From positions 1 through 49,591 of the forward strand of contig WQZX01000016.1 of NCBI GenBank assembly GCA_009780515.1: a DNA stretch of 49,591 nucleotides. The letters run 5' to 3'. The translations under genes were made by a program, and so were the position numbers. The DNA is from Nocardioidaceae bacterium (GTDB taxonomy: Bacteria; Actinomycetota; Actinomycetes; Propionibacteriales; Nocardioidaceae). The notes beneath the pieces are model-generated. The model was not told the origin of the DNA, did no database searches, and worked only from the letters and a program-made list of their open reading frames with translations. Of the stretch, positions 4-24,951 are shown in pieces; position 1 is the first letter of the stretch; every line of letters starts with the position of its first letter.

Positions 4-77
4 AGCCGCGTGTCGGACTCGAACCGACGCCCCTTCGCTTACAAGGCGAACGCTCTGGCCAACTGAGCTAACGCGGC
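4..77 (-). tRNA. tRNA-Thr (anticodon UGU)
   Basis: On the minus strand this 74-nt stretch folds as a complete cloverleaf. The acceptor arms GCCGCGT (77-71) and ACGCGGC (11-5) pair fully, the D-arm reads TTAGCTCAGTTGG, and the T-arm contains GGTTCGAGTCC. The anticodon stem TTCGC/GCGAA encloses the loop CTTGTAA, giving anticodon TGT, which reads ACA (Thr). G1-C72 and C2-G71 match known threonyl identity elements. CCA is not encoded (CCG follows). Upstream on the minus strand there is an 8-bp hairpin (79-97) and a possible -10 TACGAT (108-103); both are weak. Confidence 0.95.
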
Positions 78-2133: not shown

Positions 2134-3692
2134 GCGCGCCCACCAGGCCCGCGGGCCTCACCGACGACTTCCTGGAGGGCCTCGTACGCCGGGTGCCCGG
2201 CCGCACCGGCGCCACCTGGAAGCTGACCGAGGTCTACACCGGCGAGGTGCTGGTCGAGCTGCCCCAGTCGACCCCGGAGGACATCGAGGACGCCTTCGCC
2301 CGGGCCCGCGCCGCGCAGGAGCTCTGGGCGCGCTGGCCGGTCAAGAAGCGCCTGGAGGTCTTCCACCGCGCCCACACCCTGCTGCTCGACAACGCGCTGA
2401 CCACAGCGGACCTGATCCAGGCCGAGAGCGGCAAGAACCGGCGGATGGCGATCGAGGAGACCTGCGATCCGCCGATGGTGATCAGCCACTACCTCAAGCG
2501 GGCCGCCAAGCTGCTCGCGCCGACCAGGCACGGCGGTCCGATCCCGTTCGTCTCCTCCTCGACCGAGGTCCGGGTGCCCAAGGGCGTCGTCGGGATCATC
2601 GCGCCGTGGAACTTCCCCTTCGCCACCGGGCTGTCCGACGCCATCCCCGCGCTGATGGCCGGCAACGCCGTGGTGGTCAAGCCGGACAACAAGACGGCGC
2701 TGTCGCCGCTGTTCGGCATCAGGCTCCTGGAAGAGGCTGGGCTCCCTCCGGGCCTCTTCCAGGTCGTGTGTGGTGAGGGGCCCGACGTCGGGCCGACCCT
2801 CATCGACAACGCCGACTACGTCATGTTCACCGGGTCCACCGCGACCGGTCGCGTGATCGGCGAGCGGGCCGGGCGCAACCTGATCGGCTGCTGCCTCGAG
2901 CTCGGCGGCAAGAACCCGATGATCGTCCTCGACGACGTCGACAAGGCGGAGTGGCTGGAGTCGACGGTCTTCGGCGCCTTCGGCAACACGGGTCAGATCT
3001 GCATGCACATCGAGCGGATCTACCTCCCCGAGTCGCGGTACGACGAGCTCAGGTCGGCCTTCGTGGAGCGGGCCGCCAGCCTGAGCATCGGGGCGTCGTA
3101 CGACTTCGGGCCGGAGATCGGCTCGCTCGTCTCGCCCGACCACATGGAGCGGGTCGCCTCGCACGTCGCGGACGCGGTCGGCAAGGGTGCGACCGTGCTC
3201 ACCGGGGGCAAGGCGCGGCCCGACATCGGTCCGGCCTTCTTCGAGCCGACGGTGCTCGAGGGCGTCACCAAGGACATGCTGGCCGGGTCGGTGGAGACCT
3301 TCGGCCCGGTCGTCGGTCTCTACCCCTACCGCTCGGTCGACGAGGCGGTCCGGCTCGCCAACGACACCGACTACGGCCTCAACGCCTCGATCTGGAGCGG
3401 GAACCTCGAGAACGCTGAGCGGATCGCCGCGCGGATCGAGTCCGGCAACGTCAACATCAACGACGCGCTCGCCACGGCGTACGCCTCCAAGGGCTCGCCC
3501 TCCGGCGGCGTCAAGAGCTCCGGCGTCGGCGCCCGCCACGGCGACCAGGGCCTGCTGAAGTACACCGACGCCAAGAACGTCGCGGTGCTCAAGAAGCAGG
3601 TCCTCGGCGCCCGCCCCGGCCAGGACTACGACGGCTACGTCAAGCAGATGCTGAGCTCGTTGAAGCTCATGAAGAAGCTCCACGTGCGTTGA
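2130..3692 (+). CDS. gabD2: NAD(P)+-dependent succinic-semialdehyde dehydrogenase family protein
   Basis: A 520-aa aldehyde dehydrogenase. Visible motifs are the Rossmann strand VGIIAPWNFPF, the cofactor lysine in VVVKPDNKT, the FTGSTATG turn, the general base Glu257 in ELGGKNP, and the catalytic Cys291 in GNTGQICMH. Length and overall sequence resemble mycobacterial GabD2, which oxidises succinic semialdehyde to succinate; other aldehydes are possible. ATG 2130 overlaps the stop of the GMC oxidoreductase by four bases, so the two are translationally coupled and probably act in sequence, with this enzyme removing the aldehyde made upstream. Its own stop codon lies within a long hairpin (3689-3735) that is also the end of the convergent gene. 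Confidence 0.88.
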   Translation: MSAPTRPAGLTDDFLEGLVRRVPGRTGATWKLTEVYTGEVLVELPQSTPEDIEDAFARARAAQELWARWPVKKRLEVFHRAHTLLLDNALTTADLIQAESGKNRRMAIEETCDPPMVISHYLKRAAKLLAPTRHGGPIPFVSSSTEVRVPKGVVGIIAPWNFPFATGLSDAIPALMAGNAVVVKPDNKTALSPLFGIRLLEEAGLPPGLFQVVCGEGPDVGPTLIDNADYVMFTGSTATGRVIGERAGRNLIGCCLELGGKNPMIVLDDVDKAEWLESTVFGAFGNTGQICMHIERIYLPESRYDELRSAFVERAASLSIGASYDFGPEIGSLVSPDHMERVASHVADAVGKGATVLTGGKARPDIGPAFFEPTVLEGVTKDMLAGSVETFGPVVGLYPYRSVDEAVRLANDTDYGLNASIWSGNLENAERIAARIESGNVNINDALATAYASKGSPSGGVKSSGVGARHGDQGLLKYTDAKNVAVLKKQVLGARPGQDYDGYVKQMLSSLKLMKKLHVR

Positions 3693-3735
3693 CCTGCGCT
3701 GCGGTGTCAGCAGGTGACACCGCAGCGCAGGTCAA
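3689..3735. terminator. 21-bp-stem hairpin, shared bidirectional terminator (copy 1 of a duplicated palindrome)
   Basis: The arms 3689-3709 and 3715-3735 are perfectly complementary over 21 bp with a 5-base loop. The palindrome supplies the stop codon of the aldehyde dehydrogenase (3690-3692) and the last codons and stop of the convergent DUF559 gene. No T-tract follows. A near copy with the same right flank (AAGCGCCC) lies at 4749-4793. Confidence 0.8.
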
Positions 3736-4748: not shown

Positions 4749-4793
4749 TGACCTGCGCTGCGGTGTCAGCGTGTGCCACCGCAGCGCAGGTCA
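4749..4793. repeat. hairpin repeat, copy 2 (17-bp stem), 3' of hsp20
   Basis: The arms 4749-4765 and 4777-4793 pair perfectly with an 11-base loop. The arm sequence is the same as in the 3689-3735 hairpin, and the downstream flank AAGCGCCC is also shared, so this is a direct duplication rather than a chance terminator. It sits between hsp20 and the DUF559 gene (both minus strand) and could terminate hsp20 transcription. Confidence 0.78.
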
Positions 4794-12542: not shown

Positions 12543-12623
12543 CGTATCGAATACTGGACACGAGTCCCGAATGCCGGGATATCGATTCGGTCGAGCGCGG
12601 GTGTCGGCCCTACGCTGGCTCTG

Positions 12624-12755
12624 CTCATCCAGAGGGACTGAGGGAACGGCCCGACGACGTCCCGGCAACCGCCGCGATCCCCGACCTGCCCGGTCGGCCG
12701 CGGAAACGGTGCCAATTCCGACCAGGCGGCCACACGGGTCGCCCGGGCAGATGAG
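12624..12755 (+). promoter_or_regulatory. SAM-I (S-box) riboswitch controlling thrC
   Basis: S-box landmarks occur in order: P1 CTCATC (12624-12629) pairing with GATGAG (12750-12755), AGAGGGACTGAGGGA, the core GGCCCGACGACGTCCCGGC AACC, and GGTGCCAATTCC before the P4 region. A -10-like TACGCT at 12611-12616 would start transcription about at P1. The Shine-Dalgarno sequence GGGAGG of thrC begins two bases after P1, so regulation may be by ribosome-site occlusion; no U-rich terminator is visible. Confidence 0.88.
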
Positions 12756-12767
12756 AGGGAGGACCCC

Positions 12768-19338: not shown

Positions 19339-19372
19339 CAGCAGGGCCCCTCGCCAGCGAGGGGCCCTGCTG
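19339..19372 (+). terminator. groEL terminator hairpin
   Basis: CAGCAGGGCCCCTCGC (19339-19354) and its complement (19357-19372) form a very stable G/C-rich stem starting 41 bp after the groEL stop. There is no T-tract, as is usual in high-GC actinobacteria. Confidence 0.75.
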
Positions 19373-19418: not shown

Positions 19419-19476
19419 GTCGGGGTCGTGTGCCTGAGACATCGCTATGCCGATGTCTCAGGCACACGACCCCGAC
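19419..19476. repeat. 26-bp perfect-stem palindrome between groEL and the TauE-like gene
   Basis: The arms 19419-19444 and 19451-19476 are exact complements with loop CTATGC. Each arm contains GTGTGCCTGAGACATCG. The element lies between convergent genes, beyond the groEL terminator. Next to it, 19478-19530 is low-complexity with repeated CCGA units. The palindrome may terminate the TauE-like gene. Confidence 0.8.
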
Positions 19477-22381: not shown

Positions 22382-23570
22382 GGTGCTGCCCCAGCTGATG
22401 AAGTGGTGGGCGGCGGGGGAGACCGTCGGGATGGGCACGGTCGTCGCGACCTTCCGCTCGGCCCCGCGCCCGCCGGGCGCCTCGATGCTCGTCGGCCCCG
22501 ACGACTCCGCCGTCGGGTCCGTCTCCGGCGGCTGCGTCGAGGGCGCCGTCTACGAGCGCGCGCAGCAGGTCGTCGCCGACGGCCGGCCCGCGCTCGAGAG
22601 GTACGGCGTCTCCGACGACGACGCGTTCGCGGTCGGGCTCGCCTGCGGCGGCATCCTCGACGTGTACGTCGAGAAGGTCGATCGCGAGACCTTCCCCGAG
22701 CTCGGCGAGATCGCCGCCGACGTCGAGGCCGGCCGCCCGGTCGCGGTCGCGACCGTGGTCGAGCACCCCGATCCGGCGTACGTCGGGCGGCGGGCGGTCC
22801 TGCGGCCGACGGCGGTAGTCCCTGACGAAAAGCACCAGGATCCGGTCGGAAGTGGTGCTTTTCGTCAGGGACTGTCCGCGTCGCTGGGCAGCCCCCGCAT
22901 CGACGACGCCGTCCACGACGACGCCCTCGGCCTGCTCGCGACCGGTCACGACGGCACGCTGAGCTACGGCCCGGACGGCGAGCGCCGCGGTGAGGGGATG
23001 CGGGTGTTCGTGTGGGCGTTCGCGCCTGCGCCGCGGATGATCGTCTTCGGCGCGATCGACTTCGCTGCCGCGGTGGCACGTGTCGGGACCTTCCTCGGCT
23101 ACCGGGTGACGGTGTGCGACGCGCGGCCCGTGTTCGCCACGAGCTCGCGCTTCCCCGAGGCCGACGAGGTCGTCGTCGAGTGGCCGCACCGCTATCTCGC
23201 CGCCGAGCGCGAGGCGGGCGACATCGACGGCCGCACGGTGGTGGCGGTGCTGACCCACGACCCGAAGTTCGACGTGCCCGTGCTCGAGCAGGCCCTGCGG
23301 ATGCCCGAGCTGGCGTTCGTGGGGGCGATGGGGTCGCGGCGTACCCACGAGGACCGGATGCGGCGGCTGCGCGAGGCCGGCGTGACCGACGAGGAGCTCG
23401 ACCGGCTGTCCAGCCCGATCGGGCTCGATCTCGGCGCCCGCACCCCGGAGGAGACGGCGGTCAGCATCGCGGCCGAGATCATCGCGCGGCGATGGGGCGG
23501 GAGCGGCCATCCGCTAGGTGTCACCGAGGGCCGGATCCACGGCGTGGAGCAGGGCGCGACGACCACGTGA
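22374..23570 (+). CDS. XdhC/CoxI-family molybdenum-hydroxylase maturation factor carrying an in-frame palindrome
   Basis: A 398-aa protein. The N-terminal XdhC_CoxI domain shows GSVSGGCVEGAVYERA and GLACGGILDVYVE. The C-terminal Rossmann-like domain shows MIVFGAIDFAAAVARVGTFLGY and ELAFVGAMGSRRTHEDR. XdhC proteins bind molybdenum cofactor, help sulfurate it and load it into the large subunit, matching the neighbouring S-L-M genes. At about residues 148-167 a stretch (VVPDEKHQDPVGSGAFRQGL) is encoded by a 57-bp inverted repeat. It interrupts the linker between RRAVLRP and SLGSPRIDDAV, where homologues would be expected to have a short turn. The frame stays open, so the protein is probably still made. 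It starts at GTG 22374. Confidence 0.87.
   Translation: MREVLPQLMKWWAAGETVGMGTVVATFRSAPRPPGASMLVGPDDSAVGSVSGGCVEGAVYERAQQVVADGRPALERYGVSDDDAFAVGLACGGILDVYVEKVDRETFPELGEIAADVEAGRPVAVATVVEHPDPAYVGRRAVLRPTAVVPDEKHQDPVGSGAFRQGLSASLGSPRIDDAVHDDALGLLATGHDGTLSYGPDGERRGEGMRVFVWAFAPAPRMIVFGAIDFAAAVARVGTFLGYRVTVCDARPVFATSSRFPEADEVVVEWPHRYLAAEREAGDIDGRTVVAVLTHDPKFDVPVLEQALRMPELAFVGAMGSRRTHEDRMRRLREAGVTDEELDRLSSPIGLDLGARTPEETAVSIAAEIIARRWGGSGHPLGVTEGRIHGVEQGATTT
22817..22873. repeat. 57-bp palindromic element inside the xdhC-like coding sequence
   Basis: The arms 22817-22837 and 22853-22873 are exact 21-bp complements around a 15-base loop. Each arm holds CCTGACGAAAAGCAC or its complement, much richer in A than the flanking coding DNA. 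Total length is 57 bases, 19 codons, with no stop in the host frame. It looks like an inserted dispersed palindrome. Confidence 0.85.
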
Positions 23571-23601: not shown

Positions 23602-24822
23602 ATGGTGCGGCAGGACCTGCAGGACCGGCGGACCGCCACGGTGCGCGCTTGGACGTCGTTCATGGCGCGGCCCGACTCGCAGCTCCCGGTGCGCCCCGAG
23701 ATCCTGACCAGCTGGCACCGCTCGCGCGGCGCGGTCGACGTCGACACGGTCGCGGCGGCGCCGCTCGCCGACGAGGGCGACACCCGCAGCTTCTGGCGCG
23801 ACTCGCCGCTGCAGGTCGGTGTCGAGCGGGTCGAGGCCGAGCTGCGTCGTACGGCCGAGGACGGCGACCTGGTCATCGGCATCACCGACCGCGAGACCCG
23901 CGTCCTCTGGACGTACGGCGGCCGGGTGATGCGCCGACGTGCCGAGACCGTCAACTTCGTGCCCGGCGGGCGGTGGGACGACGAGTCGGTCGGCACCAAC
24001 GCGCTCGACCTCGCCAACCGCTCGTCCGCGCCGGCGATGGTCTTCAGCGCCGAGCACTTCGCGCCGTTCGTGCACAGCTGGGTCTGCTGGGCCGCCCCGG
24101 TCCACGACCCCGTCACGGGCGGCCAGCTCGGCGTCATCGACCTGTCGACCACCTGGGACCGCACCCACCCGATCGGCCTCGCCACGGCCCGCGTCCTGGC
24201 GACGCTGATCGAGCAGGCGATGCCGCGCTCGCGGCTGCTGGTGCCCGACGAGGAGACCGGCGACCCCGGCCTGGTGATGACGCTGCTCGGCAACGCCGAG
24301 GTCCGTCTCGACGGACAGCGGCTGCTGCTGACCCGCCGCCAGACCGAGGTGCTCGCCCTCCTCGCCCTGCACCCCGACGGGCTCTCGCTCGAACAGCTCC
24401 ACGCGGCGCTCTACGGCGACCACGCGGTCACCTTCTCCACCCTCAAGGCCGAGGTCTCGCACCTGCGCCACGCGCTCGGCGGTCAGCTCGCCTCGCGCCC
24501 CTACCGCCTGCTGATGCCGGTCGCCAGCGACATCGAGCACGTCCTCGCCCTGCTCCGCCGCGGCCAGGTCGGCCCCGCCGTCGAGGCGTACGGCGGCGAC
24601 CTGCTCCCCGGCACCGACAGCCCGGCGCTGGTCGAGATGGGCGAGTACGTCGCCGTCGCCGTCCGCGAGGCCCTCCTCGCCGACCCCCAGCCGGATGCCG
24701 TCGTGCGCTACGCCGAGCTGGCGCCGTACGACACCGAGGTGGTGGAGCGCTGCCTGGCTGTCGTCGGCCGGCATCCCGCCGTACCGCTGCTGAAGGCGCG
24801 GCTCGCCGCCGCACGCGACTGA
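23602..24822 (+). CDS. GAF-domain regulator with SARP-like winged helix and BTAD-like tail
   Basis: A 406-aa transcription regulator. Residues about 30-215 resemble the GAF sensor of AcoR-type activators (EILTSWHRSRGAVD, ESVGTNALDLANRS, VHDPVTGGQLGVIDLS). About 225-305 form a winged helix (EVRLDGQRLLLTRRQTEVLALLALHP...LKAEVSHLRHALGG) of the OmpR/SARP type, and about 310-400 resemble the bacterial transcriptional-activation domain (RGQVGPAVEAYGGDLLPGTDSPALVEM). There is no sigma-54-interaction AAA domain. It sits between maturation and structural genes of the molybdenum hydroxylase and is the obvious candidate to sense its substrate and activate coxS. ATG 23602 is used; the gap to xdhC is 31 bp. 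Confidence 0.8.
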   Translation: MVRQDLQDRRTATVRAWTSFMARPDSQLPVRPEILTSWHRSRGAVDVDTVAAAPLADEGDTRSFWRDSPLQVGVERVEAELRRTAEDGDLVIGITDRETRVLWTYGGRVMRRRAETVNFVPGGRWDDESVGTNALDLANRSSAPAMVFSAEHFAPFVHSWVCWAAPVHDPVTGGQLGVIDLSTTWDRTHPIGLATARVLATLIEQAMPRSRLLVPDEETGDPGLVMTLLGNAEVRLDGQRLLLTRRQTEVLALLALHPDGLSLEQLHAALYGDHAVTFSTLKAEVSHLRHALGGQLASRPYRLLMPVASDIEHVLALLRRGQVGPAVEAYGGDLLPGTDSPALVEMGEYVAVAVREALLADPQPDAVVRYAELAPYDTEVVERCLAVVGRHPAVPLLKARLAAARD

Positions 24823-24833
24823 GCGGGCGGTCA

Positions 24834-24867
24834 CCGGTAATTCACTGGGTTCCCAGTGAATTACCGG
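24834..24867. repeat. palindrome, 16-bp arms, upstream of coxS (copy 1)
   Basis: CCGGTAATTCACTGGG (24834-24849), TT, then its exact complement (24852-24867). It starts 12 bases after the regulator stop codon and is clearly more A/T-rich than its surroundings. It could be a terminator for the regulator or a binding site. Confidence 0.8.
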
Positions 24868-24919: not shown

Positions 24920-24951
24920 CGGTATTTCACTGGGTTCCCAGTGAAATACCG
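24920..24951. repeat. palindrome, 15-bp arms, upstream of coxS (copy 2)
   Basis: CGGTATTTCACTGGG (24920-24934), TT, then its exact complement. It differs from the 24834-24867 palindrome at one stem position (GGTAT versus GGTAA) with the compensating change in the other arm, and lies 76 bp before the coxS start. Confidence 0.8.

Follow-up and report, generated by a model that had tools for sequence, protein, structure and literature searches.

A palindrome within an xdhC-like gene belongs to a dispersed ~59-bp repeat that brackets, and varies with, a gene for a predicted EDxHD/Vsr-fold nuclease

Excerpts of PMC3733652 and PMC8266576 describe REP/RAYT systems (REPtrons, TIRtrons) as dispersed small palindromes in sequence-distinct families, some of them intragenic, with copies flanking an enzyme gene. 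Rickettsia palindromic elements (RPEs), about 150 bp long and in ten families, lie in frame in unrelated genes and encode a similar peptide (excerpts of PMC10969869). The homing endonuclease I-Bth0305I stands for the EDxHD enzymes, and its family dimerises on targets of nearly 60 bp, according to the excerpted text of PMC3943268. Here we analysed a palindrome in an xdhC-like gene of a Nocardioidaceae bacterium (assembly GCA_009780515.1); the window below means the whole stretch studied, positions 1 to 49,591 of contig WQZX01000016.1. It is one solo member of a ~59-bp repeat, other copies of which stand on both sides of a gene for a predicted EDxHD/Vsr-fold nuclease. We see about an even chance that the repeat is the site bound by the dimer of this nuclease in a homing-like cycle. 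Repeats and gene vary together across species, and the gene product probably recognises the repeats and spreads them. Among titles and abstract openings of the open-licence literature, with subscription papers mostly outside, we recognised no description of these repeats with this gene.

The palindrome had been picked out in an earlier note, made from the sequence alone. Its two exact 21-nt arms and 15-nt centre (22817-22873) were confirmed, as was the length of 57 bp, that is 19 codons with no stop in the host frame. Pfam matches to XdhC_CoxI (best stretch residues 11-78) and XdhC_C (residues 222-369) placed the encoded peptide, VVPDEKHQDPVGSGAFRQGL, between the two XdhC domains, as the note had proposed. 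The copy in the window is bounded by T at 22816 and by G instead of A at 22874; elsewhere the unit mostly measures 59 bp, TAGTCC...GGACTA. When an 18-nt arm core was searched with up to 3 mismatches, it occurred twice in the window, against a mean of 0.01 in shuffled sequences, 0 of 100 of which reached two. The same search of the whole genome (3.68 Mb in 152 contigs; labelled G000) gave 23 places, namely 22 exact matches, which make up 11 palindromes, each 57 bp long, plus an unpaired match with 3 mismatches. Recurrence in the genome, on which the note had staked its interpretation, was thus borne out, and the shuffles together with the 11 copies ruled out a chance or lone palindrome. In 11/11 copies the outermost 20 nt of each arm were invariant, the intervening 17 nt varied, and nine of the 11 had the 59-bp TAGTCC...GGACTA form. 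The word (T)GACATAA was also seen within ~13 nt of one palindrome end in 5/11 copies (L001, L007, L011, L015 and L019).

Copies were then compared across 196 genomes of one genus, that of Nocardioides silvaticus, with the window's genome included. Only a minority of genomes held the arm, or a close variant of it, in many copies; among named genomes, exact arms were carried by N. silvaticus, N. sp. J54, N. stalactiti and one Propionibacteriales metagenome-assembled genome. Among the matches listed, the four best genomes each held uniform or nearly uniform copies of their own arm version: CTGACGAAAAGCACC in G056 (with a few one-mismatch copies), GTGCGCGACGAAAAGCACC in G082, CTGCCCAAAAGCACC in G100 and CTAACGAAAAGCGCC in G172. 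A looser frame, TAGTCC-N46-48-GGACTA, occurred in 137/196 genomes with a maximum of 42 per genome, whereas the reversed control gave 0 to 4 per genome.

Two of the 11 copies in the window's genome lie 1.2 kb apart and enclose a 340-codon gene, and the same layout was found at four other loci. Homologues of this gene were present in 182/196 genomes (E <= 0.001), and a large protein database held 1,141; none of the 120 listed had a Pfam domain, the names given being 'hypothetical protein'. We inspected 90 gene loci (the 30 best homologue matches and 60 more, nearly in list order) and called a flanking palindrome if at least 15 of 20 positions paired. A palindrome stood on each side at 79/90 loci, of which 77 were matching pairs and two were not (L147, L172), while 11 loci were without one or both. 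Mean arm identity was 0.917 within gene loci versus 0.546 between loci, and most of the palindromes stood 70-180 nt ahead of the gene's matched start or 0-50 nt beyond its stop. The arms vary by locus together with the enclosed gene: in one syntenic cluster of 25 loci they range from TAGTCC to GCTGCC and TACGAC types, each matched around its gene. Homologues were also taken from further genera and families within the order, and 13/19 had a matched pair, with different arm sequences; a paralogue in the window's genome (L298) had no matched palindrome pair. TAGTCC-type palindromes occurred in 133/182 genomes with a family match versus 4/14 without (P 0.001). As a side observation, the gene is read in two frames at G100:C41:29495-30513 and G191:C1:472862-473346, where many palindromes remain; it is either broken there or affected by sequencing error.

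The bracketed gene does not belong to a known protein family as judged by absent or weak matches: three members gave no Pfam match at E up to 10, 75 members gave weak ones only (DUF559 in 3, best E 0.016; REase_MTES_1575 in 1, E 0.091), the single NCBIfam match was far below the cut-off, and the single match in the PDB sequence search had E 0.84. No transposase was matched by Pfam in the three proteins at E up to 10, nor was one among the families listed for the 75. The predicted structure combines an AbiEi-like N-terminal part with a Vsr/EDxHD nuclease domain closest to I-Bth0305I. E191, D225, H242 and D251 are invariant in 75 sequences and follow each other as in the EDxHD motif, an assignment made by order. 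The product is thus predicted to be a homing-endonuclease-like nuclease of the EDxHD/Vsr fold. Arm positions 13-21 hardly tracked protein similarity (rho 0.08), and identity over residues 91-120 of protein P0001 best tracked the outer arm beyond whole-protein identity (partial rho 0.30 and 0.25). This correlation makes residues 91-120 a candidate DNA-reading stretch.

In layout the system resembles REP/RAYT, since an enzyme gene is bordered by palindromes that are dispersed in the genome. The enzyme, however, is a predicted Vsr/EDxHD-fold nuclease rather than an HUH (Y1) tyrosine transposase, the units are ~59 bp with ~20-nt arms, and the GTAG tag was found at one or both ends in only 59/96 sites; because the enzyme class differs, we did not file the system as a REPtron. 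With the EDxHD homing endonucleases it shares the predicted Vsr-like catalytic fold, the E-D-H-D order of its invariant residues, and a palindrome of ~59 bp comparable with the target length reported in the excerpted text. It differs from them in being a free-standing chromosomal gene, with no intron or intein seen in the window's genome, in having an AbiEi-like N-terminal part, and in a presumed site that is a dispersed repeat flanking the gene and not one conserved host gene. Like RPEs, the palindromes occur in frame in unrelated genes and encode a similar peptide, but they measure 57-61 bp and have a cognate gene, whereas the excerpts of PMC10969869 mention no RPE-bracketed enzyme gene. Unlike AbiEi antitoxins of type IV toxin-antitoxin systems, the protein carries a predicted nuclease domain after its AbiEi-like part, and in the window's genome the interval bounded by the two palindromes contains no further gene and hence no AbiEii toxin gene.

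A homing-like cycle would be the best single account of the predicted fold, the invariant residues, the reported target length of the closest relative and a place that is vacant in one genome and occupied in others. One nuclease subunit would bind each arm, and the pair would cut or nick near the variable centre. Repair of the break from another copy would spread palindromes, now and then together with the gene, and would bring all arms within a genome to a common sequence. The vacant/occupied place has palindrome, gene and palindrome in G000, G064, G063 and G116 and one solo palindrome in G100 (L233), with outer flanks aligned at 67-80% on both sides; gene loss by recombination between the two copies, or gene entry into a solo copy, would each fit. 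For a solo copy of the window's genome (L015), just one of its flanks matches a flank of the gene locus in five genomes.

Solo copies sit in harmless places. A simple gene caller based on codon usage served to class 68 solo sites, fetched from ten genomes (most in part): 29 were convergent, 20 codirectional, one divergent, 15 inside open reading frames (ORFs) and three undecided. Background gene pairs from 26 loci comprised 22 convergent, 73 codirectional and 24 divergent (Fisher P 9e-7 versus the solo sites). The median distance behind a stop codon was 19 nt (n = 78). A role as promoter operator was ruled out, as just 1/50 intergenic solo sites flanked by two called genes is divergent. In the window's genome 4/9 solo copies are in frame inside genes, which answers the earlier note's question about the other copies; the host proteins comprise XdhC, a radical-SAM protein whose end is of CofH type, a CT_C_D protein and one resembling Mfd. 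All 15 in-ORF copies used one codon phase, and most encode (V/I)VPDEKH-x7-GAF(R/G)QGL. In CTGACG-type arms one of the other two phases holds TAG and the other TGA, which leaves a single phase that can survive inside genes; frame neutrality, which the note had offered as a possible object of selection, needs no special selection on the element. The best explanation is that copies persist only where they do no harm, just behind stops or, as in xdhC, within a linker of a protein when the phase is free of stops.

Orthologues of the host gene were found in 75 of 78 genomes searched, and 30 were compared. The linker holds a palindrome in nine and none in 20, some of which have leftovers of a longer linker; one was ambiguous. 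The empty orthologues agree with the note's idea of an insertion, and its counter-test, distant homologues with the same residues, came out in part, the linker of some species containing the same or another such palindrome. In 8/9 cases the arms resemble, by eye, those beside the same genome's own nuclease gene: exactly or nearly in G000, G002 and G064, closely in G051 (L084), G033 (L083) and G069 (L161), and roughly in G004 (L101) and G057 (L095, with only one flanking inverted repeat seen). No cognate gene-flanking arms were found for the palindrome of G032. On the xdhC tree, presence requires seven changes, three of them forced by strong branches; 155-160 of 500 label shuffles were as low, so that presence is no more clustered than shuffled labels. 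This pattern may reflect repeated gain or repeated loss. As a whole, the earlier interpretation stood in recurrence, in-frame copies and empty orthologues; it was corrected on frame neutrality and had missed the second part of the system, the bracketed and co-varying gene.

Seven further solo places are positionally shared between species, with both flanks at about 70-90%. Arm sequences at two of these places depend on the species (G100 versus J54; G100 versus G000 and J54) and agree at the others. The linker of Mfd holds palindromes of differing families by species (one in G000, G014 and G064, a second kind in G051 and a third in G025), which indicates that permissive linkers are hit repeatedly. 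The G025 palindrome at this same place (L335, 1719-1776) has an unrelated sequence, TTGGTCGAGCTTGTCGAGACC. Centre identity was 0.438 at 38 orthologous solo pairs, 0.325 in other between-genome pairs and 0.469 within genomes, and on these values descent and within-genome copying are not separable. In J54, six places have a copy with CTGACG arms and one with CGGGTC arms as a pair, their starts ~90-120 bp apart (Table 1), as if a new palindrome family settles beside an old one.

Two results weigh both against a nuclease that spreads and maintains the repeats and against a binding protein with host-selected sites. Palindromes are kept in genomes without a close gene (11 in G118, 8 in G158, 4 in G163 and 2 in G150), and arm decay in the absence of the gene could not be shown: J54 (G146) has a close gene with CTGACG arms and a CGGGTC family for which no second close gene turned up; among its listed copies, arms were perfect in 12/14 of the CTGACG and 6/11 of the CGGGTC family, and G033, with a CGGGTC-flanked gene, had perfect arms in only 11/17.

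The strongest rival, which we regard as rather unlikely, is that a domesticated protein binds the palindromes without copying them and that the host selects the sites, for tasks such as convergent-gene insulation or chromosome structure. It would account for arms that are 95-100% identical at 11 orthologous solo pairs while their flanks are 76-85% identical, for the bias to convergent gaps (29/50 versus 22/119 background pairs), for the predicted AbiEi-like N-terminal part, and for a genome that, bar its one unpaired match, lacks decayed copies at up to 3 mismatches. It fits poorly with 15/68 solo sites inside reading frames and only one divergent, with wholesale arm change between species at one gene locus, with scattered presence in xdhC and with conserved nuclease residues. 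That the gene is a passenger, while a different cellular enzyme moves the palindromes, a mechanism proposed for further small palindromic elements, appears quite improbable: one gene family is enclosed by matched, locus-specific arms at 77/90 loci and matched pairs recur in other genera, even though solo copies far outnumber gene-bearing ones and palindromes also occur in some genomes that lack a close homologue. Cis-acting RNA hairpins that need no protein, such as bidirectional transcription terminators, are highly improbable despite very stable predicted hairpins (-42 to -52 kcal/mol) and the short median distance behind stop codons, for terminators require pairing and not a single arm sequence per genome, and copies also lie within reading frames and upstream of the nuclease gene.

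Our best reading is a homing-like nuclease whose dispersed sites coevolve with it, operating like REP/RAYT through a predicted enzyme of unrelated kind. We also suggest, tentatively, a new kind of chromosomal homing system, in which an AbiEi-EDxHD nuclease would carry, sow and rewrite its own ~59-bp palindromic target and all sites, that in xdhC included, would follow its changes of specificity. If true, a repeat-enzyme partnership can work like REP/RAYT and rest on an unrelated nuclease. Well over a hundred natural protein-palindrome pairs would make testable the joint specificity change of a DNA-binding protein and dozens of sites, as well as what maintains palindromic repeats in bacterial genomes, and would form a natural collection of long-site DNA specificities.

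Table 1 Positions of the palindrome, its host gene, the bracketed gene and the paired copies
Feature	Position	Strand	Remark
Whole unit, 59 bp, TAGTCC...GGACTG in the window copy	22816..22874	no strand	GGACTA end in most copies
Left arm AGTCCCTGACGAAAAGCACCA, 21 nt	22817..22837	no strand	outer 20 nt identical across all 11 genome copies
Variable 15-nt centre, flanked by the 21-nt arms	22838..22852	no strand	centres differ among the 11 copies
Right arm, 21 nt	22853..22873	no strand	exact reverse complement of the left arm
Host gene, xdhC-like, open frame of 398 codons	22374..23570	+	palindrome within the linker between two Pfam domains
Bracketed gene (L009), 340 codons, outside the window	G000:C33:13866-14885	+	enclosed by two of the 11 copies
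Paired two-family places in J54	L064, L065, L068, L075, L076, L079		

No known RNA family was matched at the window palindrome at gathering score; elsewhere in the window the scan gave a SAM riboswitch at 12622-12757 (+) and a tRNA at 4-77 (-). Two near-identical perfect hairpins, with arms CCGGTAATTCACTGGG and CGGTATTTCACTGGG and 2-nt loops, stand at 24834-24867 and 24920-24951 behind the gene at 23602-24822, and are either another palindrome family or tandem terminators. A palindrome pair with arms TTGACCTGCGCTGCGGTGTCA and a 5-nt loop lies ~1 kb apart at 3689-3735 and 4749-4793, and neighbouring perfect inverted repeats occur at 19419-19476 (26 nt, 6-nt loop) and 19339-19372 (16 nt, 2-nt loop).
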